Below are positions 27,338-56,467 of a DNA stretch of 63,670 nucleotides, one piece after another. A program made the position numbers and the translations under genes. This DNA is from a virus: the IMG/VR virus record IMGVR_UViG_3300046542_000142, positions 1 through 63,670 of that record; one strand, written 5' to 3'. How positions within the stretch are numbered: position 1 is the stretch's first letter; each line of letters begins with the position of its first letter. The notes beneath the pieces were generated by a model. It was not told the origin of the DNA, did not search any database, and saw nothing but the letters and a program-made list of their open reading frames with translations.

Positions 27338-29095
27338 TTACATTCCTGCGGGTTTATTGCGTACACGGCGTTTAGCTTTCGCGACGTTCTCGACCGCCAT
27401 CGACAGCGCATCCGCCGAGTCAACGTAGTCGCCGCGTGGAAATTGCGCCAATTGGTCGAGAAGCATTGTGTGGCCTGCATTGAGAATGAGCGTTTTATTA
27501 TGGAACAACGGTTCGAGCGCCTCGATACGTTCGTCCTTACCGGACTTGTGCGCCTTAACATCGTTCAGCCGCGTTTTAGACAACCCTTCGATACGCAAGC
27601 GCTCCTGTAGCTGCCGATAAAATTCGTGCTGCGCATTAATCGTCTCAACGCTGAAAACGTGATGCTTGTACGTTTTAATCCGCTCGACAATCACGTCGAG
27701 TATCTTGTGCGGCTGCTCTTTCGTGGCGTATTCGTCAAGTATGAAGACATATCCGGTCTTATCGTGGCGGCCAACGGTCAGGACGGCGTTATAACAGGAT
27801 CGCGCGTTCTTACCCTGCGCAATATCCCACGCGCCGCTTATCGTCAGCTCCGACATAGGTATCCGCAAGTCTTCGTAACGGATAAAGCGTCGGCCATTAT
27901 CGTACTCATAGCGGTAATAACCGTAAGTGTCCGGGAAGAAGAATTGCTCGTCTTCGCTAAACGCTAGATTCCGGAACTCCGAGTTATATGCGCGTGTTCC
28001 CATGTTCACCTTTTCGTGCATAAGCGCGCGGTACGTCCAGCGCCACGGCCACGCCAAAATAACGCCGGCTTCGAGTTCGGCGCGATGTTCGTTATAAAAA
28101 TCGTCGGCGTCCGTAGACTCATCGTCAGATCGCGCATATATCTCGCAGTAGCGCTCCCATAGTTGCGGATTATCCGGCTCACTTACTACCGCGCCATGAA
28201 ACGAGGATTCGAAGTCCTTACGTTTGAGTACATGATTCAAAAGGCCGGTGGCGCTAACCATCGTACCGACGAGTATAATCGCAGTTGACTTCGATCCGAT
28301 CGGGACGACAACGGAGTTAAACCAGTGTACGAGCTTCTCGCGCGCTTCCTTCGTGCCTTCGTTGTTGATAGACGACGGATCATCGACGATAACAAGGTCC
28401 GGACGCTTTGAACCGTGGCGCATACCACGTAGCTGCTTACCCGATGATGACGCCTCGATGCGCGTGCCGGACGTTGTGATAAACGCCTCTTCGTTGTCCT
28501 TCTCGTTTTGGTTATTGCGCTCATGCAAAAGGGGACCGAAGTCCGCGCGTAGCTTCTCGTTAAATTTGAGCTGCTTGTTAATCCAGCCAATCAGCTTTTT
28601 CGATAGCGTGTCTGTCTCCGATATTTCCAAGATATAGCGCCGCTTTCGATACGCCGTTTGGTGCAACGGGAAGCTATTCGAGAACATACCGGATTTCGAG
28701 TGCCCACGCGCAGCCGCTATCGCAAGCCGAGCGCTTCTCTCAACGTGGTCAACGTGATTGCATAACTTAAAAAACTCCGCATGGATCGGCGCTATTTGTT
28801 CTAGCGGATCGTGCGGAGTTCCATCGTCGGCGTTCGCTATGATATTGTCTTCGTTGTCCGGATTGCCGGCGTCGGAGAGATATTCGTACGTAAAATATGC
28901 AACGTCATCCTCGGCGCGGTCGATCCGTTTGAGCCGTTTTAGTTCCGCAATGTCGGCGCGTAGTGATTCTTCGTGATACGTCGTCGCGCGGCCAGTCCGT
29001 ACAAGCTCGCGCAGTTTAACCGCCCGTTCGCCTACGAGTTTGATGCGCTCAGCACGCGCAGATTTATCGAGCCAAGCTTCGTTTACCCATGCGAT
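27338..29095 (-). CDS. terL: Terminase large subunit (apparent ATC start)
   Basis: About 585 residues if initiated at ATC 29095. A Walker A-like AAARGHSKSG lies at about 126-135, Walker B LVIVDDP near 235, and the nuclease acids are in GAWDIAQGK (about 424), FSVETINAQ and DSADALSMA. The frame is bounded upstream by the terS stop (TAA 29119-29117). No ATG, GTG or TTG occurs before ATG 28687, which would remove the Walker A motif. GGAGGGAGG ends 9 bases before ATC 29095, giving (M)AWVNEAWLDKSARAERIK. Non-canonical initiation is therefore likely; a sequencing error is the main alternative. It pumps DNA into the head and cuts it. Confidence 0.92.
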   Translation of the reverse strand: MAWVNEAWLDKSARAERIKLVGERAVKLRELVRTGRATTYHEESLRADIAELKRLKRIDRAEDDVAYFTYEYLSDAGNPDNEDNIIANADDGTPHDPLEQIAPIHAEFFKLCNHVDHVERSARLAIAAARGHSKSGMFSNSFPLHQTAYRKRRYILEISETDTLSKKLIGWINKQLKFNEKLRADFGPLLHERNNQNEKDNEEAFITTSGTRIEASSSGKQLRGMRHGSKRPDLVIVDDPSSINNEGTKEAREKLVHWFNSVVVPIGSKSTAIILVGTMVSATGLLNHVLKRKDFESSFHGAVVSEPDNPQLWERYCEIYARSDDESTDADDFYNEHRAELEAGVILAWPWRWTYRALMHEKVNMGTRAYNSEFRNLAFSEDEQFFFPDTYGYYRYEYDNGRRFIRYEDLRIPMSELTISGAWDIAQGKNARSCYNAVLTVGRHDKTGYVFILDEYATKEQPHKILDVIVERIKTYKHHVFSVETINAQHEFYRQLQERLRIEGLSKTRLNDVKAHKSGKDERIEALEPLFHNKTLILNAGHTMLLDQLAQFPRGDYVDSADALSMAVENVAKAKRRVRNKPAGM

Positions 29096-29116
29096 GCGAA
29101 CGCACCTCCCTCCGTT

Positions 29117-29554
29117 TTAGTCCGTACCGTCCGCTAACAGTCCGTCTAATTCGTCGAGATCAGCCGCGAGTTCTTCGTTACTCCGCGCTGATCCCGCGTC
29201 CTTCGTTTCAACCGCTACTTGCTGCGTAATTAAGCCGAAGCGCCGGAAGAACAAGTCGATCGCCTTAATGCTCGGCTGGCTGCCGTCAATCGCGCGCATT
29301 AGCTGGCGGTATACCTTCGCACGGTCAGCGGACAAAAAGTCATCCGCGAGATAATTTACGTAATCGATAAAGGCGCGCTTTTGCGTACGCCATTGATGCA
29401 GCGTTTTGCGTGACACGCCGATTTCCTCCGCGATGGCATCGAACGTTAGGCGGTCTTCTTCCGCTGCAAATTCGCGTTCTACGCACATGAGCGCAGCTTT
29501 CTGCTGGCGTCCGTCAAGCTGCGATTCTAGCGCGGCCTTGCGTTTGTCTGACAC
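29117..29554 (-). CDS. terS: Terminase small subunit
   Basis: A 145-residue DNA-recognition subunit. A helix-turn-helix, LTFDAIAEEIGVSRKTLHQW (about residues 37-56), is followed by a helical oligomerisation region and an acidic C-terminus (EELAADLDELDGLLADGTD) that would contact the large subunit. It starts at GTG with GGAGGAGG upstream. Upstream lies the inverted-repeat element copy B. Confidence 0.87.
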   Translation of the reverse strand: MSDKRKAALESQLDGRQQKAALMCVEREFAAEEDRLTFDAIAEEIGVSRKTLHQWRTQKRAFIDYVNYLADDFLSADRAKVYRQLMRAIDGSQPSIKAIDLFFRRFGLITQQVAVETKDAGSARSNEELAADLDELDGLLADGTD

Positions 29555-29576
29555 TGCGTTTCCTCCTCCGTATTTT

Positions 29577-29672
29577 AACGTGATATTTACGTTGAATTAG
29601 CGCTCGAATGTCCGGACCATACGAATACCCTCCTAAGGGCTTACGCAGGCTAATTCAACGGTGATTTAACGT
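29577..29672. repeat. Inverted-repeat element, copy B (leader of terS)
   Basis: Arms ACGTTGAATTAGC (29590-29601) and GCTAATTCAACGGTGATT (29649-29666) flank GTCCGGAC and a CCCT-CCTA-AGGG hairpin. The outer arms closely match copy A at 1731-1820. On the minus strand it lies between the HNH gene and terS and contains a 7-codon frame with its own ribosome binding site. Confidence 0.7.
29597..29620 (-). CDS. Possible 7-residue leader peptide
   Basis: On the minus strand AGGAGGG lies 7 bases before ATG GTC CGG ACA TTC GAG CGC TAA (MVRTFER). It overlaps one arm of the inverted repeat upstream of terS, so its translation would disturb the hairpin. Such leaders can attenuate downstream genes. Too short to judge by coding statistics. 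Confidence 0.3.
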   Translation of the reverse strand: MVRTFER

Positions 29673-29685
29673 GATTACTACGTTC

Positions 29686-30357
29686 TTATGCGGCTATTAA
29701 CGTTAGGCCCGCGATTTCATCCGCTAATAGCGCGGTTAGGCGGTCCCGCTCACGCTGCATAGCGCGTTCGAATGCGTTAGATTGATCGAGTAAGCGCAGG
29801 ACCGTTTCATGCGTCAGGCCCGAACGCTCAACCATGCCGGTGATGACCGCGTCGAAACGTTCTTGCGTAAATTCTGGCGTGCGGCTGCGGAAATCGAGGA
29901 GGGACGCGGAACCTTTTGACGTGTTACAACCGTTGCAAACCTTCGTAAGATTCCAGCACGTATTGTATCCGCCTTGAATCATCGGTATAATATGATCTAC
30001 GTGAACCATCCGCTTGCCTGGCGTCGGTCCGTGGTCGCTACCGCAATAAGCGCAAACATTCGGAGTATTATGGATATCCAGCGCATCCTCTACGGTTAAG
30101 TCCGAAGGCACTCCGGCCAGACCTGCGTAGTAGCGTGACGTAGAGTAGAACGACATATGCGGATTGTCCCGCCGGTACTGGCGTGTACGCTCGTTCTGCG
30201 CCTCCGGGTCCTTTGCGCGGTACTTACGGCTGGCTGCACGCCTTGACTCTACGCTACTAGCTGCGTTCCGGCACCGATTACACTTGTGTAAGTTATTAGT
30301 AAAGCGTGCTTCTGGCGCTGATTGACCGCATGAGACGCAGACCTTTACGTCGCTCAT
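29686..30357 (-). CDS. HNH endonuclease
   Basis: A 223-residue protein. An N-terminal zinc unit (CVSCGQSAPEARF; CNRCRNAASS) is followed by a basic linker and an HNH domain at about 120-165 (CAYCGSDHGPTPGKRMVHVD; HIIPMIQGGYNTCWNLTKVC; NGCNTSKGS). All HNH positions are present. It may be a free-standing homing endonuclease or the HNH protein that assists packaging, since it lies directly upstream of terS. Start ATG 30357 has GGGAGG upstream. Confidence 0.88.
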   Translation of the reverse strand: MSDVKVCVSCGQSAPEARFTNNLHKCNRCRNAASSVESRRAASRKYRAKDPEAQNERTRQYRRDNPHMSFYSTSRYYAGLAGVPSDLTVEDALDIHNTPNVCAYCGSDHGPTPGKRMVHVDHIIPMIQGGYNTCWNLTKVCNGCNTSKGSASLLDFRSRTPEFTQERFDAVITGMVERSGLTHETVLRLLDQSNAFERAMQRERDRLTALLADEIAGLTLIAA

Positions 30358-31077
30358 CCGAATACCTCCCGAGGTTAAATTTTTGTGAGCAAATTCCGTA
30401 CAGCAAACGTGACTTAGTCCTTTACCGCGCTTGGGGGTCACAGCATTACCGCGTTAATACTTTAACGTAGTACAGCGTTACTCCGTCAACAACCACACAA
30501 AATACGCATTTGGCGGTCAACTACGAGACCTTGACACCCACGCTAAACCCGCGCCCAGCCTACGTTTACCTTTCGTAAGTAACTACGCTTCCCTACGCGT
30601 TTGCACTATTCCGCATATCCTGACGCGTTTACATACGTTATTTTCACGTTACTTTACCGTAGTACAGCGTTAATACTGCGCTAACCCCGTGAGTTTGTGG
30701 AGGGCTTCCGGCCTGCCCCGCCCTGCAACCGTATTGTCGCGGATCGCTCGGACGTTAATCGGTCACTCAGCGTTGCCCCCTGCGCAGCCTATACGCTATT
30801 CGCCGCTTCTCCCGTTACCACACGTAACCCTTACGCTCGATCCCGTTCAATCGCGTTCCTTCTAATAATACGTAACAGCACGTAGGTATAAACGCTATCC
30901 TTAATGACACGTTACATGTGCGCTATCTCAGCGTGTGTGAGCGCTTATGTACGTTACCCTAACGTTTATACCTCCACGCTATTAGAGCGCCTGTATGACG
31001 CTAATACTACGTTGATCCAACGCATGTAAAGAACGCTATTCCCACGCCCGGGCAGAGCGTAAGAACAGCGCTGTCTA
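30358..31077. other. Long non-coding gap with direct repeats
   Basis: About 720 bases with no gene-like frame. A 22-base direct repeat (one mismatch; core CGTAGTACAGCGTTA) occurs at 30459-30480 and 30651-30672. Words ACGCTATT and ACGTTA recur many times, for example near 30791, 30976 and 31033. On the minus strand TTGACG at about 30489 lies ahead of the TAAAGT end of the first repeat (19-base spacing). It could hold promoters for the packaging/structural operon or part of an origin. Confidence 0.5.
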
Positions 31078-31260
31078 TTACGTCCGCTTACGTACATTAC
31101 CGTAGTTATCGTACGATATAGATAAGCGCCAGATATTCGCGTCCCAACCTAGCGGAGTCTTACGCCAGAATATCGTCTTAAAGTCTACGCGATCCCATCC
31201 GCTTCCGTATACGAACGATAACGACTTCGATCTCATTGCGCTTCCCCAATTAACGCTCAT
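31078..31260 (-). CDS. Hypothetical small protein (60 aa)
   Basis: A 60-residue basic, aromatic-rich protein (MSVNWGSAMRSKSLSFVYGS). ATG 31260 is preceded by GGAGGG. It is followed by the long non-coding gap. Family unknown. Confidence 0.55.
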   Translation of the reverse strand: MSVNWGSAMRSKSLSFVYGSGWDRVDFKTIFWRKTPLGWDANIWRLSISYDNYGNVRKRT

Positions 31261-31279
31261 ATAACGTTATCCCTCCGTT

Positions 31280-33750: not shown

Positions 33751-33786
33751 ACGTACATACGTTCCCACAAACGGAGGCTCAACGCT

Positions 33787-36581: not shown

Positions 36582-36839
36582 TCACGCCGCCTCCTCAATA
36601 GCTACTTTTCCGTTCTCGTCATAAACGTCAAACCATTCCCCACAGTAGTTGAACGTCGACTCTCGTAGCTTAAGAATGGTGGTTATTTTCTTGCAGGTGT
36701 AAACGCGCATTCCTTGATATCTACCGTCCAGTCCGGTAAATTCGCCGCGATAATAGCGCGACAGCCGCCCGTGCTTATAAACCGTTCGAACGTATTTCTC
36801 TCCAGATTCCTCGCCCATCTCTTTGCGTAAGTAAAACAT
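36582..36839 (-). CDS. Hypothetical protein (85 aa)
   Basis: MFYLRKEMGEESGEKYVRTV, beta-rich with Tyr and Arg (HGRLSRYYRGEFTGLDGRYQ) and an acidic end, ENGKVAIEEAA. The EEAA codons carry the ribosome binding site of the next gene. TAATG overlap with the HTH gene upstream. Family unknown. Confidence 0.65.
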   Translation of the reverse strand: MFYLRKEMGEESGEKYVRTVYKHGRLSRYYRGEFTGLDGRYQGMRVYTCKKITTILKLRESTFNYCGEWFDVYDENGKVAIEEAA

Positions 36840-37255
36840 TATGCCGCCTCCGTTTCGTTATCGTCCGTAGTCTCTTCGTCCAGATCGTAGCTGACCGTAA
36901 TCTCGCCGTACTCCCACCGCTTATACACCGCCGCTATTCTTTCCGCTGCCTCACCGTAGAGCTTAGCAGCCGCCTGCTGCGTTATGCCCATGATGGCGGC
37001 GGCGTCCTTCTGCGTCATGTCTGCGCCGCTGATCCACGCGAGTGCTTCCGCCTGGCGCTCTGATAAGCCGGCGCTGAGGATAGCGGAATGAAGATCGAGT
37101 AAAATGCAGCTCGCGTCGGTGTCTCCGTGATACCGCGCGGAGTTAACGTGGTGGCGATCGCGGAGGAGCTTACGTACGCCCTCTGCGTCGTTGAGAACGT
37201 ATTTAACTTCGTATGTGCGTGCGCCTTTGTCTACGTCGATTTTTACAGACCCGAT
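36839..37255 (-). CDS. HTH protein, sigma region 4-like (apparent ATC/ATT start)
   Basis: About 138 residues. The N-terminal part GSVKIDVDKGARTYEVKYVL is followed by LSAGLSERQAEALAWISGAD and MTQKDAAAIMGITQQAAAKL, a helix-turn-helix of sigma-70 region 4 type. The frame lacks ATG, GTG or TTG until codons deep in the HTH. AGGGAG ends 9 bases before ATC 37255 (6 before ATT 37258). It ends in TEAA with a TAATG junction to the next gene. It could be a late-gene activator or sigma-like factor. Confidence 0.75.
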   Translation of the reverse strand: MGSVKIDVDKGARTYEVKYVLNDAEGVRKLLRDRHHVNSARYHGDTDASCILLDLHSAILSAGLSERQAEALAWISGADMTQKDAAAIMGITQQAAAKLYGEAAERIAAVYKRWEYGEITVSYDLDEETTDDNETEAA

Positions 37256-37359
37256 AATAATCCGCTCCCTTTTTCGGACAGACCAGCGCAGGCTTGTCGT
37301 AGCCCCGCGCCAGTGCTGCCGCTTATTGTGAATTTGTCTAACGCTGAAACTTGCGAATA

Positions 37360-37557
37360 CTATTCCGCAATTGTCCGCTCTAATCCCGTTTCCGCCACCA
37401 CATATGCGTTCTCACATTCGCCGTCATGCGTCTTGTCTCCGTTTGTGTACGACGTAACCCCATTGCCTACATAAATCTCGCCGCTACACCAGGCACAGTA
37501 AGCGGAGACTCGCGGTTCACTCGGCGGTTGGAAGCGCTCGTCCATCGGCGTCCACAT
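37360..37557 (-). CDS. Small zinc-ribbon protein (65 aa)
   Basis: MWTPMDERFQPPSEPRVSAY with CAWCSGEIYVGNGVTSY and a later HDGECENAYV (Cys and His ligands). Small Cys-rich ribbons of this kind are common in phage early regions. TAATG overlap with the methyltransferase stop. Function unknown. Confidence 0.6.
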   Translation of the reverse strand: MWTPMDERFQPPSEPRVSAYCAWCSGEIYVGNGVTSYTNGDKTHDGECENAYVVAETGLERTIAE

Positions 37558-38696
37558 TACGCAGCCTCCCGCAGATCGACCGCTAAAGCTGCGTTAAGTT
37601 GCTCCGCCAGCGCGACTCCGATAACGTAGGAGACGCGCGATGCGACTCCGTTACCGACGATTCGGTATTGCGCGGATAGCGAGATTGTGTCCGGTAGCAC
37701 GTACGAATCGGGTACGGATTGGATGCGTAGGCATTCGCGGACGGTGAACCGGCGTGGCTGCGGCGCAGGGTGTACGCCTTCATTCCGTGCATGACTTCCT
37801 ACCGTCAGAGACGGCGACTCCCACGAAGCGACTCGATTAGCTTTCTCGTATGTCCAATCGGGATTAACATTGTCAAATAAATGGCCGTGATGATTATCGG
37901 TGTACGACGGGTGTACGAACGCCTTCCCTTCGTTAAATATCCGCCCCATTATCGTAGGGCTTGGTTCCTCCCATGGATTGACGCGGAACCCAAACGCCCC
38001 ACCTGCGTTCCTTCTAGCGTAACCCTCAAGAGCCTTCTCCGTGATTATTTTCTCTTCGTGATTTGCGATTGGTTCCGGTAAATCTCCGATGACATCGCGC
38101 AACACCTGCGTCCGATACTCTCCAACGCTTGGCTCCGGAAACTTAAACGTAAATCCGAGGTCTTTACGGATGCCGACGATAAACACGCGCTCTCTCTTCT
38201 GCGCCACTCCGTAATCCCAAGCGTTGATTAAGCGCCAGGTAATCGCGTAGCCAATCGCGTCAAACTCCGCAAGGAGAGCGTCAAAAGTCTGACGGTGCTT
38301 CTTCGTAATCAGCCCTTTAACGTTCTCGAATACGAAGGCTTCCGGCTGTCCATGCGAGATGTCTTCTAAGTAATCCCATACAAGTTTTCCTCGCGCTCCT
38401 TCTTCTCCTTCGCCAAGCCCAGCAACACTATAATCCTGACAAGGAGGCCCGCCAGCATAAACATTTGCGTGAGGTATCTTGGCTTTGATTTCCGCGCTCG
38501 TAATGTCCCCACAAATAACATGGTCGCCAATATTGTGAGCGTAAGCCTCTGCGGCACGTTTATCGAAGTCATTTGCGAAGATGATATCGTACCCCGCAGC
38601 CTTGAGTCCGACGGCCATCAGACCACCTCCGCAGAAGAACTCGGCTACTGTTAAGCCATTCGTAGGCAATTGCGGTGTTACGTTATAATTGCGTAT
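37557..38696 (-). CDS. DNA cytosine-5 methyltransferase (possible ATA start)
   Basis: About 379 residues with all key C5-MTase motifs: I (VAEFFCGGGLMAVGLKAAG), IV (GGPPCQDYSVAG, nucleophile Cys), VI (FVFENVKGL), VIII (QKRERVFIVG), IX (FTVRECLRIQSVPDSY) and X (QYRIVGNGVASRVSYVIG). It should modify phage DNA, protecting it from host restriction; no partner endonuclease is adjacent. AGGAG ends 9 bases before ATA 38696, giving (M)RNYNVTPQLPTNG. In-frame ATG 38744 exists but has no ribosome binding site and would overlap the upstream gene. Confidence 0.93.
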   Translation of the reverse strand: MRNYNVTPQLPTNGLTVAEFFCGGGLMAVGLKAAGYDIIFANDFDKRAAEAYAHNIGDHVICGDITSAEIKAKIPHANVYAGGPPCQDYSVAGLGEGEEGARGKLVWDYLEDISHGQPEAFVFENVKGLITKKHRQTFDALLAEFDAIGYAITWRLINAWDYGVAQKRERVFIVGIRKDLGFTFKFPEPSVGEYRTQVLRDVIGDLPEPIANHEEKIITEKALEGYARRNAGGAFGFRVNPWEEPSPTIMGRIFNEGKAFVHPSYTDNHHGHLFDNVNPDWTYEKANRVASWESPSLTVGSHARNEGVHPAPQPRRFTVRECLRIQSVPDSYVLPDTISLSAQYRIVGNGVASRVSYVIGVALAEQLNAALAVDLREAA

Positions 38697-38715
38697 GGTT
38701 ATCGTCTCCTCTCGT

Positions 38716-38907
38716 TTACCTTGTGATGGTCGGTAAATCTCCATTGGACATTTTGAGCGGTAGGTTGCGGTTAATGTTTTTGGCAGGCGTACTACCGTCA
38801 TTAATCGGTATTCCTGCGCCGTAGTTAGTTGTTGTCTTACCGTCAACGACGTTTTGAATATACGCAGGTAGCCTGTCCTCAGGGTCGTGATTCGCTACCC
38901 TCCGCAT
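38716..38907 (-). CDS. Hypothetical protein (63 aa)
   Basis: Frame reads VANHDPEDRLPAYIQNVVDG and GAGIPINDGSTPAKNINRNL. ATG 38907 follows GGAGGAGG by only 3 bases, so the start is uncertain. It overlaps the end of the 50-residue gene upstream. Family unknown. Confidence 0.5.
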   Translation of the reverse strand: MRRVANHDPEDRLPAYIQNVVDGKTTTNYGAGIPINDGSTPAKNINRNLPLKMSNGDLPTITR

Positions 38908-41355: not shown

Positions 41356-43290
41356 TTAGGCTCCGTGGCGTAAGCGGTCTTCAACTTCCGCCTGCTTCGC
41401 CGGATTAAAGCGCGTTTTATAGTCGCCGGTTAAGTAGCCAGTTACGCGGCGGATACGCGACATTGGGACTACGCGGTCCTCTACGCCACATGACGGACAC
41501 TCTGCGCCGATAATGCCTTCGTAGCCGCACGCAGGGCAACGGTCAATCGGATGATTAACGCTGAAATATCCGATATCCTGCGAGAGTGCATACTGTACCG
41601 TACGCATGAAAGCGCGCGGATTATTGCGTGCGTTACCATCGAGCTCAACGTATGAGATTGCGCCGGCATTGCATAACGCGTGGAATGGCGCTTCCAGTTC
41701 GATTTTACGCGCGGCTGTGATCAGATAGTATACGGGAATATGAAACGAGTTCGTATAGTAATCGCGGTCAGTTACGCCGGGGATAACGCCGAATTCTGCG
41801 CGGTCAATCTTCGTAAACTTACCGGCCAAGCCTTCCGCAGGCGTAGCGAATAGCGTGATATTCAATCCGTATACTTCCGAAGCGTCATCACAGAACTCCC
41901 GCATCCTGGCGATAATTTCGGTCGCTTTAGCGTAGACTTCTGCGTCCTCTCCATGATGCTTACCGTAAAGCGCCGTCATACACTCCGCTAGTCCGATAAA
42001 GCCGAGCGCGAGCGTTCCGTGCCTAATAAGATCGCGTACGTTATCGTCAGGACCGAGCGCTTCTCCGCCTTCCCATACGCCCTCGCGCATCATGAAATCG
42101 GAGGCTCGCGCTGGCTGCTGCGCTTGGATTCCGTAGCGGTGGATAAGTCCGCGCACAGATACGTCCATATAGCGATCGAGCTCCGAGAGGAATCCGTTCA
42201 TATCCGGTTCGGCGCGCTGTCCCGTTGCGATTCCGTATTCGAGTCCGAAGCGTACGAGATTCAGCGTATTAAACGAGAGGTTACCCTTACCGGATTGATG
42301 ATTGCGGCCGAATCGATCGGCTATCGTACGCGTCCGGCAACCCATAGTCGCGATAATCGTATTCGGGTCCGCTGGGTCGTAATACTGCAGATTGTACGGA
42401 GCGTCTACGTTAACAAAATTCGGATACATTCTCCGCGCGCTGCATTCGATTGCCCGCGTGAATATATCGTAGTTAGGATCGCCGGGCTCCTGGTTAACGC
42501 CGCGCTTGCACTGGAATATCTGCTGCGGAAATATTGGCGTTTCCCCTGCGCCGAGCCCCGCAATGGCCGCGTCCAGTAACGCGAACGAAACCATCCGGCC
42601 TTCCGTTGACGTACACATTCCGTAGTTAAGCGACGTGAACGGTATCTGGCCGCCGGCCCGCGAGCTCATCGTATTCAAATTGTGGATAAGCGACTCGGAC
42701 GCCTGATACGTTTCCGTCTCCGTTTCGGCCCGTGCGTATTCGTATGAACGCGGAAACACTTGCGCCAGGTCGCGGTTATCGAGGAATAATTCCGTGTCGG
42801 CCACGTGTGTCGATTCGCGGAAATAGCGCTGTCCCTTACGGAAGTGTTTAACGAATGACTTGCGCACGTATGGCGCGAGATCCCAATCGATCTTATTACC
42901 GCTGACGCCGCCGTACTGCGCGTTCTGCTGCGATTGGAATATGATTGCTACGAGCGCCATCGCGGTCATAATCGAATTAGGATGGCGGACGGAACCGCTG
43001 CCCGTATTGAATCCGTTAGCGAGCAGACGGTCGAACGGAATGAATATACAATTCGTTGTGCCGAGCGCGTATTGATCGAGGTCGTGTACGTAAACGTGTC
43101 CGCTGTCAATCGCGCTGACCAGTTCCGCCGGCATTACGGATTCACGTGCGTACCACTTCGAGTATTCGCTGCCGAACTTCGACATCTTACCGCTGAATGA
43201 ATCTCCGTTTAGATTCGCGTTCTCTTTTAGTATTTCCGCATCCTGTGCGTGGATAATACGTTCGCCGATTTCGTGTAAATGTGTAGTCAA
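41356..43290 (-). CDS. nrdD: Anaerobic (class III) ribonucleoside-triphosphate reductase
   Basis: A 644-residue enzyme that reduces ribonucleotides to deoxyribonucleotides. VYVHDLDQYALGTTNCIFIP, FTSLNYGMCTSTEGRMVS, the catalytic IIATMGCRTRTI region, the zinc site CPACGYEGIIGAECPSCG and the C-terminal glycyl-radical segment RRVTGYLTGDY are present. It implies growth of the host without oxygen at least at times. It starts TTG 43290 preceded by AGGGGG. Confidence 0.95.
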   Translation of the reverse strand: MTTHLHEIGERIIHAQDAEILKENANLNGDSFSGKMSKFGSEYSKWYARESVMPAELVSAIDSGHVYVHDLDQYALGTTNCIFIPFDRLLANGFNTGSGSVRHPNSIMTAMALVAIIFQSQQNAQYGGVSGNKIDWDLAPYVRKSFVKHFRKGQRYFRESTHVADTELFLDNRDLAQVFPRSYEYARAETETETYQASESLIHNLNTMSSRAGGQIPFTSLNYGMCTSTEGRMVSFALLDAAIAGLGAGETPIFPQQIFQCKRGVNQEPGDPNYDIFTRAIECSARRMYPNFVNVDAPYNLQYYDPADPNTIIATMGCRTRTIADRFGRNHQSGKGNLSFNTLNLVRFGLEYGIATGQRAEPDMNGFLSELDRYMDVSVRGLIHRYGIQAQQPARASDFMMREGVWEGGEALGPDDNVRDLIRHGTLALGFIGLAECMTALYGKHHGEDAEVYAKATEIIARMREFCDDASEVYGLNITLFATPAEGLAGKFTKIDRAEFGVIPGVTDRDYYTNSFHIPVYYLITAARKIELEAPFHALCNAGAISYVELDGNARNNPRAFMRTVQYALSQDIGYFSVNHPIDRCPACGYEGIIGAECPSCGVEDRVVPMSRIRRVTGYLTGDYKTRFNPAKQAEVEDRLRHGA

Positions 43291-43473: not shown

Positions 43474-43685
43474 GCGGCCATATCCTCCGCGTTTAGAGCA
43501 GCGTCTAACACATCATAGATAGCGTACCCACCGTCTGATGCGAGCGCTTCTCCGGGATATTCCTCCGCGACTTCGTCTAGCTTTTCTATACTCAGCCAAC
43601 CGAACACAGCGCGGAGCGTGCGTACCTCTTCCTCCGTGGCGATAATTTCGAAAAACTCCCGGTTATCCATTCGATCAATTCTCAT
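43470..43685 (-). CDS. Small acidic protein (71 aa)
   Basis: MRIDRMDNREFFEIIATEEE, then VFGWLSIEKLDEVAEEYPGE. Acidic and helical, coupled to both neighbours by 4-base overlaps. Family unknown. Confidence 0.6.
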   Translation of the reverse strand: MRIDRMDNREFFEIIATEEEVRTLRAVFGWLSIEKLDEVAEEYPGEALASDGGYAIYDVLDAALNAEDMAA

Positions 43686-44239
43686 GCCGCAATCCCTCCG
43701 ATTTCATCGATCATATTTTCGCGCAGTAAATACGATAGGCCAACCGCACACGCGTCACTGTCATCGTAACCGGGTCGCCATTTGTATCCGTCCGATAACC
43801 GCAGATACCTCCGCACGCCTTCCGCGACTTCCGGCTTCTCCGCTTTACCGCTGCCTGTTACGTATTTCTTAACGGACGGCGGAGATAGCGCGGGCTTCAA
43901 GTCCTCCGCCTGGTATCCGTACGCCGCGAGCGCTTTGTCTGCGGCGGCCCATGCGCTAAATATCGTTTGAGTCGCGCGCTTATTCCGTCCGGACGTAAAG
44001 TCTTCGCGGACTACGATATCGAACGGACGGTGCTCGCGGATGAACGCGGCGACAAACGTCTCGACCGTGTAATTCCGCACCGCATCCGTATCGGCCGTCG
44101 AAGTCGCTACGGAGTCACACGCGATAAGGTGCGGCGTGCGGCCCCGGACTTCCAACGCTGCGATGCCGGGGGATAACGATAGGTCGAGCGCAAGGATGCG
44201 GAAGTTAAATTCCGCTGGTTTCTTCGTCTTTGTCGCGAT
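43682..44239 (-). CDS. RuvC-like Holliday junction resolvase (apparent ATC start)
   Basis: About 185 residues. The first catalytic Asp is in FRILALDLSLSPGIAALEVR (D19), followed by IVVREDFTSG and the C-terminal DDSDACAVGLSYLL with paired acids, as in RuvC-fold resolvases. The first ATG/GTG/TTG in frame is TTG 44155, after D19, so it would remove the active-site residue. GGAGG ends 8 bases before ATC 44239, giving (M)ATKTKKPAEFNFRI. It overlaps the upstream gene by 35 bases. It would resolve branched replication intermediates before packaging. Confidence 0.85.
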   Translation of the reverse strand: MATKTKKPAEFNFRILALDLSLSPGIAALEVRGRTPHLIACDSVATSTADTDAVRNYTVETFVAAFIREHRPFDIVVREDFTSGRNKRATQTIFSAWAAADKALAAYGYQAEDLKPALSPPSVKKYVTGSGKAEKPEVAEGVRRYLRLSDGYKWRPGYDDSDACAVGLSYLLRENMIDEIGGIAA

Positions 44240-44417
44240 CGTTTCCGCCTCCTTCCGCGTTATAGCCGAACGAGAACGCGGACAGCGCCAGCACCGTAAA
44301 GATCACGCTCATGTACCACGGACCCTGCGTAAGTAGCGCGAGCCAAACGAACGCCCCGACCATTAGCGCGCCGATAAGCAGTGTACAGAAAACTCCGTTA
44401 ATTATCCGTTTGAACAT
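44205..44417 (-). CDS. Small two-helix membrane protein (70 aa)
   Basis: MFKRIINGVFCTLLIGALMV and a second helix, WYMSVIFTVLALSAFSFGYN, followed by an acidic Gly-rich tail that overlaps the start of the resolvase gene. ATG 44417 is chosen because GGAG lies 9 bases upstream. Role unknown. Confidence 0.65.
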   Translation of the reverse strand: MFKRIINGVFCTLLIGALMVGAFVWLALLTQGPWYMSVIFTVLALSAFSFGYNAEGGGNDRDKDEETSGI

Positions 44418-45409: not shown

Positions 45410-46441
45410 TTACGCGGCCTCCTTCGCTGACTCTTCGAATCTAATCCGCTGAATCTCCGCGAGCGCTTCGGCTGGCCCGCGCTTCTTCCAGTCCGGCAGG
45501 CTCGACCGGTTAATCGCACTGACCTTCCGTTCAATGACCGCGATTTCCTCTTCCGTTAAGGAAAGCGCACAGGCGCGCTTGAAATTGTTAAACGTAAAGT
45601 TTTCGATATCGAGGGGCGGCGGCGTCTTCGTATTGACCGCGTGGACAATGTCCGCGAAGCCGTCGAATACCTCTGCGCGCATCTCGTCCGTAATATACAG
45701 GCCGTACGCCTTGATATCCGGTGTCTTCGCGAAGTCCTCGGCGGTCATTTCCCACGCCTTTTTAGCGCAGTTAACGTAGAGAATTACGTAATAATCAACG
45801 CTGTACATTTGCGAGTAGCAGACCGTTTGCTTAACGTGCTTTTCGTCCGGACCATTACGCGTTGAGTATTCGGACGTCTTGGCCGACGTAGTTTGCTTCG
45901 ATTTCACTTCGAGGCCGACGCGCAGCACTTCGCCGTCATCCGTCCGGTAAAGCATCATACCGTCGCAGAATCCGTATAGCGCGAAGACAGCGCCGTTGTG
46001 TGTAATATGCGTCAGGCCAGGCGCAAACTGTTCGAAGCGCGGCTCGCCCTGCGTGTTACGTTCGAATACAAAACGTGGGAGGACTCCGGTGGCCTTGGCA
46101 TAGTGTTTCTCCGCGAAGAGAATATCGCGCTGTATCATGTCGCCAACCTGCGTACCGAGCCGAGTCCAGCGCCCTTGATGCGGCGGCTGACCGGCTCCGT
46201 CCTTATTCGCGCCGAGCGCCTTTTCGTAAAGTGAGCGCGGACATGCGCCAGCGGCCGACGGAGAGAAATACGGAATGTTACGCGGCGGCCATACCTTGCG
46301 CGATTTATCCGTGAGGACAGCGGCGTACCAGGCGTGAATCTGCGCGTCGAGCGCGTCGTCGTACGTTTCCGGCTGCGAGTGCCAAACGTTGAGATATGCG
46401 GTAAAGTCCTCCGCGATTTGATTAGCGATTGATTGCGTAAT
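45410..46441 (-). CDS. PD-(D/E)XK nuclease, Cas4/RecB-like (apparent ATT start)
   Basis: About 343 residues. YFSPSAAGACPRSLYEKALG (58-77; CPR-Y motif), then GTQVGDMIQRDILFAEKHY, the catalytic Asp in FCDGMMLYR (about 160) and LEVKSK (E178, K180), then KQTVCYSQMY (the QxxxY element). This is the RecB/Cas4/YqaJ nuclease layout. The first ATG in frame (46138) would remove the CPR motif; no GTG or TTG occurs earlier. AAGGAGG lies 9 bases before ATT 46441, directly after the upstream stop, exactly as in sibling junctions with ATG. Likely a recombination or host-DNA degrading exonuclease. Confidence 0.85.
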   Translation of the reverse strand: MTQSIANQIAEDFTAYLNVWHSQPETYDDALDAQIHAWYAAVLTDKSRKVWPPRNIPYFSPSAAGACPRSLYEKALGANKDGAGQPPHQGRWTRLGTQVGDMIQRDILFAEKHYAKATGVLPRFVFERNTQGEPRFEQFAPGLTHITHNGAVFALYGFCDGMMLYRTDDGEVLRVGLEVKSKQTTSAKTSEYSTRNGPDEKHVKQTVCYSQMYSVDYYVILYVNCAKKAWEMTAEDFAKTPDIKAYGLYITDEMRAEVFDGFADIVHAVNTKTPPPLDIENFTFNNFKRACALSLTEEEIAVIERKVSAINRSSLPDWKKRGPAEALAEIQRIRFEESAKEAA

Positions 46442-46442
46442 A

Positions 46443-46847
46443 TTAAGCCGCCTCCTTTAGCGTGGTTGATCCGGCCAGGTCACGTAGAGCTTCGGTCAGC
46501 TCTGTAGCAAACCGGTTGCTATCGTCGTACCAGCCGCCTTTGCCGAGATTTCCGTTGGTCAGGCGATGTTGTAGCGCTTCGACCGTAGTCTCCTCCGGGT
46601 TCCACTGACCCTCCAATCCGTAGCACGAACAGTGTCCGCCGTTTACTTCGTATATCTTTCCGTCAGACTTACGCCGGAACAAGACAAACGCGTCCCCTTC
46701 GTAATTCTCATTCGTGTAACTGGCGAGGATAATTTCGATATCGTCTTTATCCGTAATTGGATGGCGTGGCCCTGAACTCCACGTATCCTCGAAGTCCTCG
46801 TACATGCGTTCTACGCTGCTCCAATCGTTCAGCATAATCGGTCTCAT
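46443..46847 (-). CDS. Conserved phage protein (134 aa)
   Basis: MRPIMLNDWSSVERMYEDFE followed by DIEIILASYTNENYEGDAFV, YEVNGGHCSCYGLEGQWNPE and ETTVEALQHRL. The EGDAFVLF...YEVNG.HCSC.GLE.QW.PEETT pattern recurs in many Gram-positive phages, function unknown. It ends in KEAA. Confidence 0.72.
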   Translation of the reverse strand: MRPIMLNDWSSVERMYEDFEDTWSSGPRHPITDKDDIEIILASYTNENYEGDAFVLFRRKSDGKIYEVNGGHCSCYGLEGQWNPEETTVEALQHRLTNGNLGKGGWYDDSNRFATELTEALRDLAGSTTLKEAA

Positions 46848-51508: not shown

Positions 51509-51586
51509 TAATTTGCGTCTCCTTCGTTGGGGCTGACGCTCTCGCGTCCTCCGCCCCGGTTACGTTCATCAGCGTCAGTGCTCCGT
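51509..51586. other. Intergenic inverted repeat
   Basis: CTGACGCT (51526-51533) and AGCGTCAG (51571-51578) flank about 37 bases in the gap between the PD-(D/E)XK-like gene and the repeat protein gene. No U-tract follows, so it may be an operator or a folded leader. Confidence 0.5.
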
Positions 51587-52069
51587 TTAGGCTGCGCTAG
51601 GTAACTCCGTTTCCTCTACGCTCAAGACCGCTGCGGCCTCTGTATAGACATCGCGGTTCAGCGCGAGGCTCAGCTCAACCCAGCGCTCAGACGCTTTAGC
51701 TTCGGAACACCAGTACTCCCCGAGAAGCCGATTCTCGAACATGTAAACGCGCGGCACTTCGCCCTCAACGATCCAGACGCCAATTATCAGATCAGCGTCG
51801 GCTAAGTCGTAAATGGTTCCGTTACCTTTCTTCGCGTATACTACGAGGTCACCGCCGCGATCCTTACGCTGGCGAATCGTCTTAATTTGAATCTTCGCGT
51901 AATCACCGCTGACCGGGTCTTTCGCGAGCACATCATACGCCTCGTCAGTTTCCGCCTGATGAACGGTCCAGCCGTTAGCCAACAGCGCTAATCGTGCTGC
52001 CAATTCCGAGTACTTCCCTACGTTTTCACTTAAGTGGGCCGTTTTAACCACGCTCCTCTGCGTCTTCAT
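51587..52069 (-). CDS. PD-(D/E)XK endonuclease-like protein
   Basis: About 150-160 residues. NVGKYSELAARLALLANGWT is followed by DEAYDVLAKDPVSGDYAKIQIKT, split here as YDVLAKDP and AKIQIKTIRQR; the E...D...QIK arrangement is the PD-(D/E)XK nuclease core. ATG 52069 has no ribosome binding site. GAGGAG further in lies 10 bases before an in-frame ACG (52036 region), so the true start is uncertain and could be non-canonical. Likely a recombination nuclease. Confidence 0.72.
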   Translation of the reverse strand: MKTQRSVVKTAHLSENVGKYSELAARLALLANGWTVHQAETDEAYDVLAKDPVSGDYAKIQIKTIRQRKDRGGDLVVYAKKGNGTIYDLADADLIIGVWIVEGEVPRVYMFENRLLGEYWCSEAKASERWVELSLALNRDVYTEAAAVLSVEETELPSAA

Positions 52070-52343: not shown

Positions 52344-52385
52344 GTGCGGTCGCCTCCTTCGTATAGTTGCGTAGACTACCGCTCG

Positions 52386-53216
52386 TTAGAACGGTAAATC
52401 AGATTCGAGAATGTCCAGCGGAGCGTCAGCGTCCGCAGGCGGCGGAGTCTGTGCGTTGTTACCTGCGCTAGAACCGGCGGAGGCACCGATAGACAATCCG
52501 AGGCGGCCGATGTCAAAGCCCGCGATGACCAAATTCTTCGTTTGTTCCTCTTCGTCCGCTACGTACAAGCACGTTTCGAACGATTCCATGTCGAACGGAG
52601 TTTCGCCGAGCTTATCGAAGTTAGCGCGTTCTTCTGGCGTGAGGTCGCGTTCCTGCTTAACGATGGCCGAGAGCGATACGACTGCGTCCTTTCCTGCGCC
52701 TTTCTTTGCGAGTTTGAACGCGATTACGTCGAGGTCATCTTTGTTGTCGTCGATTGCGGATTTAATCGTAGCCTCCTGTTTCGGGCTCAAGTCGACGACT
52801 ACGTCTTTGCCCGTTGTCAGGTCGAAGAATGCGCGCAGATAACGCTTTTTACCTTTGAACAAGTACGCTTCGTTAGTCAGCGCCTTAACTTCGTCCTCAC
52901 TCGCGCCGGCTTCTTTGGCTGCGTTGGCCTCGGCGTAGAACAGGTCGGACGCCTTATCCCATAGCGTAGGGTTCTTGTCTACGTAGCCTCTCGCGTTACG
53001 TGTCGCGGGATTCTTCGGAACGAACGTCTTAACCGCGCCGTGCGTTTTGTCCCCGAACATTCCGTAGCCGTAATACTCCGCAACGTCGTTAATCGACTTG
53101 ACGCCTACGTTCAACTTAGTACCGGATTTAAACGATGTAATCGGACTTTCCTTCGCGCCTCCTTCGTTGTTACCCGCCGCTGCTGCCTCCGCGCCTACCT
53201 TCGTAAACATGCTCAT
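52386..53216 (-). CDS. ssb: Single-stranded DNA-binding protein (phage type)
   Basis: A 276-residue protein. Beta-rich core (LFKGKKRYLRAFFDLTTGKD; VVVDLSPKQEATIKSAID), a flexible Ser/Asn/Pro region and an acidic C-terminal tip, DILESDLPF, typical of SSBs that recruit partners through D(L/I)PF. It lies in the replication block between polymerase-side genes and the sigma-like gene. It is not an E. coli-type OB SSB in length and is closer to phage gp2.5-like proteins. Confidence 0.75.
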   Translation of the reverse strand: MSMFTKVGAEAAAAGNNEGGAKESPITSFKSGTKLNVGVKSINDVAEYYGYGMFGDKTHGAVKTFVPKNPATRNARGYVDKNPTLWDKASDLFYAEANAAKEAGASEDEVKALTNEAYLFKGKKRYLRAFFDLTTGKDVVVDLSPKQEATIKSAIDDNKDDLDVIAFKLAKKGAGKDAVVSLSAIVKQERDLTPEERANFDKLGETPFDMESFETCLYVADEEEQTKNLVIAGFDIGRLGLSIGASAGSSAGNNAQTPPPADADAPLDILESDLPF

Positions 53217-53547
53217 TCGATCACGCTTCCTCTTCGTTTATTTAGCGGATTCGCTTCGCTTTTACACGTTGCAACGCTCCGCCAGGCGTTCGGTCAATAG
53301 GACTGCGCTCGCTGACGTGTCGACTCCGCCAGTTTGCGCCTTACGCTTCGGCCCGAACTCGGATGGGTGCGTCTAATCGTAAATCTATACGCAATTACGT
53401 CCGTTGTACGTATACTCGGGACAACCCCGTAATAACTCCGATTTTACGTGTCGCCGGATCAAGTCCGACGCTGTTGCACGGCTCCTACGTCCGCAACGCG
53501 GCACTAACGGATACCGTCGCGTTAACACCGCACGGCCGACGTAGGAA
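53217..53547. other. Non-coding gap upstream of ssb
   Basis: No clear gene. Two overlapping minus-strand frames read protein-like for 20-40 codons (ending VKAKRIR and AERCNV) but neither has a start codon with a ribosome binding site. The left part is the 5' leader of ssb, and the rest probably carries its promoter; no consensus boxes are evident. Confidence 0.4.
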
Positions 53548-54102
53548 CTACAGAAACGCAATCAAGCCTTTCGCAATCGATGATTTCTCTTTCTGTACGC
53601 TTAGCAGCTCGCTATCCAAAACGTTAATCTGCGCCTGTATTTCTGCAACTCTGGCGTTATTAGCGCTAATAACGCTGCGGCTTGGCGTAATTTCCATACG
53701 ATACTGACATTTCGCGAGCTCAACAGATAAGCGAGATTTCTCTACGCGGACCTTGCGCTCTATCGCCTTCTCCTTACGGTATACTTTCGCGAGCTCCCGC
53801 TTGGCTACCGCCTGGACTTTTTGTTGCATCTCGGACGGCGCGTAGTGCTGCGTGTAGACGGTAACTACAAGGTCTGTATCTAGCGGCATAATGTAAGCTA
53901 CACGTTGAAAAGCGAAAAGGCGTGACAAGCGGCCGTCTTCTGCCGTTATTACAGATACAAATTCCGCTTTCTTTACGTTATCGCGAATCCACTGCTCCGC
54001 TTTTTCTGCGGCAATTCCTAGACGGTCGACTGCGCGGTCAAGTGCATGCTGACTTACGCGAACCTTACCGATAAAGTTACGAGCTCCTAGCGTTGTGCTC
54101 AT
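53548..54102 (-). CDS. Hypothetical phage protein with C-terminal coiled coil (184 aa)
   Basis: VRVSQHALDRAVDRLGIAAE begins the domain (H.L.R...R), followed by FVSVITAEDGRLSRLFAFQR and VVTVYTQHYAP, then a Lys/Glu-rich coiled coil (about 110-175). The N-terminal block is like small phage proteins with toxin-like RelE/HigB folds, but I would not assign activity. Overlaps the 54-residue gene by 4 bases. Confidence 0.65.
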   Translation of the reverse strand: MSTTLGARNFIGKVRVSQHALDRAVDRLGIAAEKAEQWIRDNVKKAEFVSVITAEDGRLSRLFAFQRVAYIMPLDTDLVVTVYTQHYAPSEMQQKVQAVAKRELAKVYRKEKAIERKVRVEKSRLSVELAKCQYRMEITPSRSVISANNARVAEIQAQINVLDSELLSVQKEKSSIAKGLIAFL

Positions 54103-54263
54103 GCGATCACGCGTCCTTTCAATACGGTGGGCCAGCCGCGCAGCACATCGATGTAATCCGCAGCGTCTTCGTATTCTTCGTAGCTTCCGTTATAAATGCG
54201 GTCGACATAGCGGTCGGGTTGGCGGGTGATTTCCGCGTCCTTTTTACGTTTATTTGCGTTCAT
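54099..54263 (-). CDS. Small protein (54 aa)
   Basis: MNANKRKKDAEITRQPDRYV, then DRIYNGSYEEYEDAADYIDV and LRGWPTVLKG. ATG 54263 has GGAGG upstream. Coupled to the next gene (ATGA). Family unknown. Confidence 0.7.
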   Translation of the reverse strand: MNANKRKKDAEITRQPDRYVDRIYNGSYEEYEDAADYIDVLRGWPTVLKGRVIA

Positions 54264-54310
54264 ATATCGTGTACCTCCGTATAATTTAAGTGGGCGCGGT
54301 TAAATAAGCG

Positions 54311-54339
54311 TTGACAACCGCAAATTTTTTGCGTAATAT
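54311..54339 (+). promoter_or_regulatory. Consensus rightward sigma-A promoter opposing the sigma-like gene
   Basis: TTGACA (54311-54316), 17-base spacer, TAATAT (54334-54339). The spacer is a palindrome CGCAAA...TTTGCG, a good operator. No rightward gene follows until 55212, so the transcript would run antisense to the gene at 54468-55082 or end at the hairpin 54428-54458. Confidence 0.8.
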
Positions 54340-54427
54340 TGAAAACGTTAAAGGTTTCATTTGGAATTATTTAGGGTAACCTATACATAAGTAATAAATA
54401 TAACGAGATTATGATATACTTTTAACT

Positions 54428-54458
54428 GGAACGGACTTTCTGCCCGATTGCCCGTTCC
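54428..54458. terminator. Hairpin after the sigma-like gene, possibly bidirectional
   Basis: GGAACGG and CCGTTCC form a perfect 7-bp stem around a 17-base loop between convergent transcripts. No U-tract on either side, so efficiency is uncertain. Confidence 0.45.
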
Positions 54459-54467
54459 GTGTAATTA

Positions 54468-55082
54468 CTAAACGGCTAGGTATTCGGAGACATCACCAAA
54501 GCGATTGGCGTCGTAACGGCGAGCAAGTCTCTGTATCTTGCGTTTAGCAACCTCATGGTGCAATCCTAGCGCTTTGGCGAGCGCTGTAACGGATTCGTAC
54601 TGTGAGAAACTTGATACGATTCGCGTCGTATCTTTATCGACCTGTCGAGGGTCCGAGAGGAAGTCGATCAGTTTTCGCTGGTCGGCTTCTTTCTTTTTGT
54701 GACGTTGTAGTACGATGTCTTCCGTCGTCATTTCGTCGGGTACTTCGGATGTTGGCGCATCCTCGTCGTCCTTATCGACGGTTAATTCATAGTGCTTGCC
54801 GCGTGTTTTCTCTTTCCGGTACCAATCGATCCTCGCGTTCTTTAACGCGGTAGACATTTGCGATCCGAAACCATTAAGTGCCTCCTTCTGCGTTAGTTTA
54901 ATGATGACGTCGTTCAGGATGGAGTCGGCATCATTACGATCGCCATGCCCGGACGAACATACACGTCCGCGATTCTGCGTTTGGAAAACTCGATTCGCTT
55001 CATCATACAGCGCTCGAAAACAGTCCTGGCTACGAGTAGTATAGTAATCTGCAGCAAGCTTATTCAGTTTTTCAAAACTCAA
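54468..55082 (-). CDS. Sigma-70-like RNA polymerase factor
   Basis: A 204-residue protein. DADSILNDVIIKLTQKEALN, then FGSQMSTALKNARIDWYRKE is like sigma region 2 (N.....D.yR+), and the C-terminal VTALAKALGLHHEVAKRKIQ, RLARRYDA is an HTH like region 4. The middle is acidic (KDDEDAPTSEVPDEMTTED). It starts TTG 55082 with AAGG 8 bases upstream. With the factor at 709-1353 and the region-4-like protein at 36839 it could form a cascade of phage transcription control. Confidence 0.65.
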   Translation of the reverse strand: MSFEKLNKLAADYYTTRSQDCFRALYDEANRVFQTQNRGRVCSSGHGDRNDADSILNDVIIKLTQKEALNGFGSQMSTALKNARIDWYRKEKTRGKHYELTVDKDDEDAPTSEVPDEMTTEDIVLQRHKKKEADQRKLIDFLSDPRQVDKDTTRIVSSFSQYESVTALAKALGLHHEVAKRKIQRLARRYDANRFGDVSEYLAV

Positions 55083-55211
55083 GAGCAGCACCTTCTTCTA
55101 TAGTGTTATTTTCCTTACATAGACTTCAACGGAGCCGCAGCACCATCCGCACACTTTATGAAGAAAAATATGTTAAAATGTTTGGTGTACTACTTAATAG
55201 GAGGCGCTAGG

Positions 55212-55466
55212 ATGTACGTTGTCGGTGAATGCCGGCTTCGGACGTTACTAGAGGAGCGCAAGCTTTCGCAGGCCGAACTTGCCCGCCGCACCGGTTATAA
55301 CCGTAAGCAGATCGGTAAATGGATCAACAACCGCGATACGGTCGGCGTCATGGGTATCGATAAGGCACGCACTATCGCGAAGGTTCTCGGACTTAAATCC
55401 CCCTACGAGTTGTACGATTGGGACGAGATTCCTCTTGTGACACCAAGCAAGGCAGCGGACGATTAA
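55212..55466 (+). CDS. XRE-family transcriptional regulator (84 aa)
   Basis: CRLRTLLEERKLSQAELARR, TGYNRKQIGKWINNRD, then ARTIAKVLGLKSPYELYDW: one complete Cro/CI-type HTH. ATG 55212 follows GGAGG by 8 bases; an in-frame start at 55158 has no ribosome binding site. Rightward, divergent from the sigma-like gene (start 55082), so it may control that promoter. A perfect 22-base palindrome follows its stop. Confidence 0.87.
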   Translation: MYVVGECRLRTLLEERKLSQAELARRTGYNRKQIGKWINNRDTVGVMGIDKARTIAKVLGLKSPYELYDWDEIPLVTPSKAADD

Positions 55467-55485
55467 CTTCGTCTGCACCGAATAG

Positions 55486-55507
55486 ATGTCGTCAAATTTG
55501 ACGACAT
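55486..55507. promoter_or_regulatory. Perfect 22-base palindrome between convergent genes
   Basis: Each half is ATGTCGTCAAA or its complement. It lies between the XRE stop and the primase stop and touches the latter (stop codon at 55508-55510). It could be a bidirectional terminator without U-tract or an operator. Confidence 0.75.
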
Positions 55508-56467
55508 TCAACGTATTTTTAAACGCGGTCGCACCGTATCAATCCGCTTAGCACTTTCGCAAGCCAATCGCGTACCCTCGATACCTACCGCGTTGAAATC
55601 CTTACCTCCGCTAATCTCTACGTTGTACAGCCGTACATACCCGCGCATCTTCCGCGTTATCTCCCAGCGCAGCTTCTCGCCGGCCTCATCGTTATCGCCC
55701 GCGATTAGCAGCTCCTCAATCGGACTCCTACGTAATAACTCCGCTTTCTCATCCGTAAACTCGCTGCCACCAACCGCCAGCCCAAACGTACCGGCCGACG
55801 CAGCCGTCATCGCGTCTATTTCCGCCTCAACGATAACCGCCCGCTTAATATTTCTTCGGTAGACTGCGTCGATTCCGTAAATCATCGATTTAACCGGCGC
55901 GCCACCTTTCGCGTACCAAAACGCTTTCCCCCACGTAGCGCGCCACTTCGCGTTCATAACGTCGCCGTTTGGTCCGCCCCACGGCATCACAACGGCATTC
56001 TTCGCGTTGTCGTATCCGCATCTGTACAGCCGCTGAATAATTGGCGCTATTCCACGGCCGGTTAGATACGGAACTTCCTGCTCGATAAACGCTGTGATGT
56101 CGAGGGGCCTGCGTTTAGCTGGCGGTCCCGTGCCGCGTAAGTTAATCCGCAATTCCGGCCGCGCGTATGCGTCAGGGACTTCGTACAAAATTTCACAAGC
56201 CTCAGCGTTTGTTATGTTCCGCAAGAATGCGTACAAACGGATGGGGCCGCCGCTCTGCCAATCCGGATCGATCGCACCTTTATCCGACCAGCATCCGTAA
56301 TACTGTGACGCGCGGTCTAAGTTGATAAAGAAAGATGGCGCGTTATCACTCCGTAAGCCGAACGGCGAGCTCGCGATGAGCTTCGTTGCGTGCGGGATGA
56401 CATTGCGCCAGGGGTAGCGTTCTATTTCAGCGTCGAGGGCGTCTACGTTAAGTAAATTGCGGTCGAT
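55508..56467 (-). CDS. DnaG-type primase with TOPRIM domain (apparent ATC start)
   Basis: About 319 residues. N-terminal KLIASSPFGLRSDNAPSFFI and ASQYYGCWSDKGAI (about 33-70) form the primase-type SPF...PSF.v......YGC motif without the full CHC2 zinc ligands. TOPRIM follows, with VIVEAEIDAM (E about 214) and IAGDNDEAGEKL (DxD about 258). The first in-frame TTG (56236) would delete the N-terminal domain, and no ATG/GTG/TTG precedes it. GGAGG ends 7 bases before ATC 56467. A consensus promoter at 56591-56563 drives it. It makes RNA primers for the phage fork. Confidence 0.88.
   Translation of the reverse strand: MDRNLLNVDALDAEIERYPWRNVIPHATKLIASSPFGLRSDNAPSFFINLDRASQYYGCWSDKGAIDPDWQSGGPIRLYAFLRNITNAEACEILYEVPDAYARPELRINLRGTGPPAKRRPLDITAFIEQEVPYLTGRGIAPIIQRLYRCGYDNAKNAVVMPWGGPNGDVMNAKWRATWGKAFWYAKGGAPVKSMIYGIDAVYRRNIKRAVIVEAEIDAMTAASAGTFGLAVGGSEFTDEKAELLRRSPIEELLIAGDNDEAGEKLRWEITRKMRGYVRLYNVEISGGKDFNAVGIEGTRLACESAKRIDTVRPRLKIR

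Follow-up and report, generated by a model that had tools for sequence, protein, structure and literature searches.

In one lineage of Paenibacillus tailed phages and prophages, several genes for DNA-cutting, DNA-copying and regulatory proteins appear to begin at near-cognate codons (AUC, AUU, AUA, ACG, CUG) that ribosomes normally reject, and in two of these genes, encoding a Cas4-like nuclease and a RuvC-like resolvase, the start has stayed weak while the codon itself changed repeatedly. In bacteria, non-canonical starts have been described for only a few individual host genes. Related phages exchange one weak codon for another freely and yet retain a weak start, which suggests that low output of these phage proteins is deliberate. 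We consider it probable, from comparative evidence and by analogy, that the weak starts are maintained in order to attenuate the translation of DNA enzymes needed at low dose, on the design of infC, pcnB and ccpN. The affected set would comprise the Cas4-like nuclease, RuvC, the terminase, a family A polymerase, the primase, a PD-(D/E)XK nuclease, a C5 methylase, a sigma-like regulator and sometimes the portal.

Near-cognate starts in the window

The window, meaning the whole stretch of DNA analysed, is a 63.7-kb virus record that forms one IMG/VR entry. A nucleotide search of the window against phage DNA records gave no match, and a search of it for phage tRNAs found none. Relatives of its large terminase gene (terL) were found in Paenibacillus, Bacillus, Chengkuizengella and Thermoactinomyces genomes and in IMG/VR contigs; the nearest named phages are the Halcyonevirus of P. 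larvae (terL 38%).

A preliminary description of the window had pointed to five genes with an in-frame ATH codon (ATC, ATT or ATA) behind a strong Shine-Dalgarno sequence (SD), and all five were recovered at the same coordinates on the minus strand (Table 1). Its observation that no ATG, GTG or TTG precedes the key motifs or most of the frame also held. The first canonical codon of terL is ATG 28687, codon 137, just beyond the ARGHSKS motif, and in RuvC TTG 44155 falls beyond DLSLSPG; the nuclease frame has its first ATG at 46138, and the primase frame its first TTG at 56236. For the gene described as encoding an HTH protein, ATC 37255 and ATT 37258 had been left as alternatives. The former is preferred, as it aligns with ATG and GTG in relatives (L120 and L124, respectively), and the protein is better described as a phage sigma-factor-like regulator (phrog_3512). 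The methyltransferase, proposed as a sixth case, does have ATA 38696 behind an SD, and conservation begins there; since an in-frame ATG lies upstream at 38801, the absence of a canonical start is not strictly true of this gene. A seventh near-cognate gene, which the preliminary description missed, encodes a PD-(D/E)XK endonuclease-like protein, whose match to PF11645 is weak and under that profile's cut-off.

Table 1. Window genes with near-cognate starts (positions in the window)
Product	Length (aa)	Position	Strand	Start codon	SD	Family
Large terminase, TerL	585	27338..29095	-	ATC 29095-29093	GGAGGTG 29103-29109	phrog_38
Sigma-factor-like regulator	138	36839..37255	-	ATC 37255-37253	AAGGGAG 37265-37271	phrog_3512
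C5 cytosine DNA methyltransferase	~379	37557..38696	-	ATA 38696-38694	AGGAG 38706-38710	PF00145
RuvC-like Holliday junction resolvase	185	43682..44239	-	ATC 44239-44237	AAGGAGG 44248-44254	PF02075
Cas4-like nuclease	343	45410..46441	-	ATT 46441-46439	AGGAGG 46451-46456	phrog_1706
PD-(D/E)XK endonuclease-like protein	151	51587..52042	-	ACG 52042-52040	AGGAG 52053-52057	phrog_5018
DNA primase (Toprim)	319	55508..56467	-	ATC 56467-56465	GGAGG 56475-56479	PF13155

The portal gene of the window starts with ATG. Portal genes of several relatives (L013, L014, L089 and contigs G016, G020 and G033) start with ATC, ATT, ATA or ACG, and one of these, with ATA, belongs to a Thermoactinomyces prophage. The window also carries a 65-aa protein (37360-37557; phrog_4331) upstream of the sigma-like gene and a phage-borne anaerobic (class III) ribonucleotide reductase, NrdD (41356-43290), which is found in 1 of 15 related phages.

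Where coding begins

An unbiased scan for strong SDs with no ATG, GTG or TTG nearby found ATC 35 times, ATT 19 times and ATA 12 times as the codon in start register. Most codons scored 0-3, and the two other frequent ones, GCG (12) and AAT (10), resemble neighbours of true starts. The ATH excess in the start register exceeds chance, and as a positive control the scan recovered infC (ATT) in two host genomes.

Homologues point to the same boundary. In relatives, whether from viral contigs or from Paenibacillus genomes, the start lies at exactly the same position, where the codon is ATC, ATT, ATA, ACG, CTG or one of ATG, GTG and TTG. In pairs of near-cognate homologues, substitutions downstream of the start gather at codon position 3 (nuclease 1304/2493, terL 814/1458, RuvC 585/1053, sigma 161/293), while upstream of the start codon they are spread evenly over the three codon positions. 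Judged by this shift, the coding sequence begins at the near-cognate codon. In these sequence features the genes match the infC, pcnB and ccpN type: a near-cognate codon stands in frame and in start register, with a strong SD ahead of it.

Gene specificity and phage lineage

The distribution among genes was examined in 18 Paenibacillus-type phages (16 contigs, with hosts known for part of them, together with Tripp and Heath), which are akin and so non-independent. Two genes stand out. The nuclease starts with ATT in nine phages, ATC in five, ATA in two and CTG and TTG in one each, so that 17 of 18 starts are near-cognate and none is ATG. RuvC starts with CTG (6), ATC (5), ATA (3), ACG (2), TTG (1) or ATG (1), making 16 of 18 near-cognate, and in a wider set CTG, ATA, ATC, ACG and ATT are all found at its start. 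Near-cognate starts numbered 0 of 95 in six families of the structural or virion region (major and minor capsid proteins and four others) from the same phages. Set against the nuclease and RuvC counts, this gives a Fisher p of 7e-28 when phages are treated as independent, a treatment that overstates the independence of related members.

Other genes are mixed. The near-cognate share is 10/18 for terL, 7/15 for the polymerase, 6/17 for the sigma-like gene, 5/17 for the portal and 4/17 for the primase. At the terL start, relatives have ATC, ATA, ACG or CTG, or else ATG, TTG or GTG; the six sigma-like cases are all ATC, with ATG or GTG at the same codon in the others, and the four primase cases, counted with the window included, are ATC, ATT or ACG, the rest being ATG, GTG or TTG. 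The methyltransferase register holds ATA in eight (the window and seven relatives), ATC in two, CTG in one and ATG in three, and homologues of the PD-(D/E)XK gene start with ATG, GTG, TTG, ATC, ATA or ACG. The preliminary description had proposed this very alignment of homologues as a check, and canonical codons do occur at the same position in some relatives and near-cognates in others. Because many relatives have canonical starts in terL, primase, polymerase, portal and sigma, weak starts are not obligatory there; conservation of a non-canonical start by selection is seen for the nuclease and RuvC, and the evidence for the other five is mixed.

Two readings had been offered at the outset: deliberate low-level expression, and relaxed start selection owing to some feature of phage or host. 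The second, in which some factor makes near-cognates so cheap that they drift in, is the most serious competitor to maintained attenuation, though we regard it as unlikely. Its candidate agents are a second IF3-like protein or some phage protein. The lineage distribution speaks for it, as a strict scan found ATH and canonical starts in a ratio of 37 to 449 in Paenibacillus-type phages and 0 to 96 in Geobacillus-type relatives (ATH was also 0/27 in the Bacillus phage KLEB27-1). So does a second, divergent IF3-like (IF3_C) protein of about 165 aa, which is encoded by 6 of 7 Paenibacillus phage hosts and by the majority of the 105 genomes sampled from the host family. This protein (L134 and L242-L246, in host genomes G003, G001, G005, G004, G007 and G002) is degenerate, without the linker residues Y75 and K79 (E. 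coli IF3 numbering) and several C-domain arginines of canonical IF3.

General relaxation would place near-cognate starts in all gene classes and in host genes, and that is not what is seen. The structural genes of the same phages have none, and host chromosome stretches (P. pinihumi, P. agricola, a Bacillus and Chengkuizengella) yield, apart from infC, one to three candidate ATH starts, compared with about 250 canonical ones. The one convincing case, a P. agricola response regulator (G007:C2:142064-142756; L415) with ATC behind a strong SD, proved isolated, its orthologues starting with ATG or TTG. The unrelated P. larvae phages Fern, Lily and Diva gave ATH in 0 of 57 and begin RuvC with ATG, where Halcyonevirus, in the same host, has CTG. 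The second host IF3, although correlated with the trait in 6 of 7 Paenibacillus hosts, is not required in every case: Thermoactinomyces has one IF3 and yet harbors the phage whose portal starts with ATA. The sampled chromosomes, moreover, do not make wide use of ATH starts.

An IF3_C search of the window found no IF3-like gene. The 65-aa protein mentioned above co-occurs with the trait, in 12 of 15 Paenibacillus-type phages and 0 of 5 Geobacillus or Bacillus relatives, but several other window genes are likewise common in the former and rare in Geobacillus-type phages; such associations are confounded by phylogeny, and none of the genes examined is recognisable as an initiation factor. On the counts for structural genes, host chromosomes and unrelated phages, relaxed selection is unsupported as the sole cause. 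Since unrelated phages of the same host and the host chromosomes show few or no such starts, the trait seems to belong to this phage lineage, possibly together with a permissive host. Relaxed selection may still act as an enabling condition, since within the phage family the trait is mostly confined to the Paenibacillus branch. Such confinement points to something permissive in the host or lineage, which low dosage would not explain by itself.

Weak starts through codon change

Across 74 nuclease and 69 RuvC sequences, the start codon must have changed at least 16 and at least 22 times, respectively, and 8 and 11 of these changes are among near-cognates alone. ATG is nearly absent from the near-cognate clades of both genes. 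For the nuclease it occurs in only three of the 74 sequences: L295, where the call is uncertain, and two members of the Geobacillus-side clade. The nuclease of Geobacillus-type relatives starts with TTG, and their RuvC combines ATG or GTG with a poor SD. The median RuvC SD is much weaker in these relatives, at -9.3/-8.0 kcal/mol (ATG/GTG) versus -15.7 kcal/mol (p = 5e-10), a comparison that, like single start calls, is partly circular because start calling relies on the SD. Read alongside the phage starts, the TTG nuclease and the poor-SD RuvC look like other routes to weak initiation. A stronger SD as general compensation for a weak codon was considered and holds for RuvC only; it does not hold for the nuclease or for terL, and the terL SD is alike in both start classes.

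As the nuclease codon has switched repeatedly among ATT, ATC, ATA, CTG and TTG and hardly ever turned into ATG, and Geobacillus-type relatives resort to TTG or a poor SD, the start position is, on this comparison, held weak while the codon changes, which neither drift nor general relaxation would predict. A neutral account, in which low-dose genes simply need no efficient start and the codon wanders among weak ones without benefit, would fit the free variation of near-cognate identity and the mixture of both start classes in terL, primase, portal and polymerase. Drift should often bring ATG back, however, and its absence from all 18 nuclease starts despite repeated changes, together with the avoidance of ATG by the Geobacillus relatives, makes this account very unlikely.

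It is still more doubtful that translation enters from upstream genes by coupling, readthrough or frameshifting, with the near-cognate codon incidental. The nuclease start does adjoin an upstream stop codon, and RuvC overlaps the preceding gene. That said, the gaps differ (about 20 nt for terL, with sigma and primase far from any upstream gene), the identity of the upstream gene is not conserved, and homologues have ATG, GTG or TTG at the identical codon, each with its own SD. Sequencing or assembly errors in ATG codons, conceivable for a single IMG/VR record, are ruled out because the same codons recur in many independent isolates and metagenomes, among them Paenibacillus assemblies from RefSeq and P. 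larvae phages from GenBank.

Probable attenuation and dosage control

Maintained attenuation is the reading that best accommodates these observations. Sequence comparison shows where these genes start, where coding begins, which genes are affected and that weak starts outlast changes of codon, and deliberate low-level expression fits the gathering of weak starts in DNA enzymes and regulators, with none in structural genes. Mechanistically, a near-cognate codon (AUC, AUU, AUA, CUG or ACG) would lie about 7-9 bases past a strong SD that recruits the 30S subunit; the codon would mispair with initiator tRNA and be mostly rejected by IF3, leaving a small fraction of the AUG level of protein. Rejection by IF3, the low yield and the benefit of limiting enzymes that cut and copy DNA are inferred from infC, pcnB, sigR, cvfC1 and ccpN. 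Too much of a protein that cuts, joins or copies DNA, or that regulates transcription, is plausibly harmful.

A more speculative extension is that IF3-rejected starts let a single global signal set both the timing and the dosage of enzymes for packaging, recombination and replication, as a common switch. Expression of all near-cognate genes might then rise in concert if infection or induction lowered the ratio of free IF3 to 30S subunits, or if IF3 were displaced by the host's second IF3-like protein. We think such a switch improbable.

Consequences for annotation

Common gene callers accept only ATG, GTG and TTG, a systematic blind spot: in public records of these phages, the terminase, portal, polymerase, nuclease and resolvase genes are truncated or missed. 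The GenBank portal, DNA polymerase, nuclease and RuvC of Tripp and Heath begin downstream of conserved CTG, ACG and ATC starts (3131, 38627, 42695 and 43689 in Tripp, L236; 3742, 36907, 40925 and 41919 in Heath, L241), so the public Halcyonevirus proteins are truncated. Truncated records affect structure prediction, taxonomy and functional work. With one phage family keeping weak starts on the same enzyme genes over many genomes, the choice of start codon offers a view of dosage control that can be compared between genomes and put to the test.

Comparison with known systems

A literature search found no report of near-cognate starts of this kind in phages, and SPP1 has AUG, GUG and UUG starts only. 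Halcyonevirus (Tripp and Heath), of the same phage family as the window, shares the trait, with a CTG portal and RuvC, an ACG polymerase and an ATC nuclease; it differs in its ATG terL and in deposited annotations that begin these genes too late.

Among bacterial genes, infC shares the strong SD and an IF3-rejected near-cognate start (AUU, AUC or AUA), and infC of these hosts itself starts with ATT or ATC. It is one autoregulated host gene, whereas the window lineage has up to seven phage genes per genome and no phage IF3 gene. The AUU start of E. coli pcnB is said to limit expression (Binns and Masters 2002, cited in PMC13009471); this too is a single host gene, where the phages have a recurrent gene set with interchangeable codons. 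In Streptomyces, the GTC start of sigR is repressed by IF3, required for correct dosage and misannotated in genomes (PMC5472188). The phage starts resemble it in being non-canonical, misannotated and, if our reading is correct, IF3-repressed and dosage-setting; sigR differs in its GTC codon and in encoding a host stress sigma factor.

As to yield, CUG gives 0.86% of AUG in E. coli, in the figure of Hecht et al. quoted in PMC11497404, and cvfC1 (AUU) and ccpN (AUA) of S. aureus, which have extended SDs, reach about 10%, and up to 30%, of AUG expression (PMC13009471). The last two are, like the phage genes, Bacillota examples in which a non-canonical start is conserved behind an extended SD, but they are host genes with a fixed codon and no clustering by enzyme class. 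Since the phage layout matches that of infC, cvfC1 and ccpN, the phage proteins would, by analogy, likewise be made at a low level.
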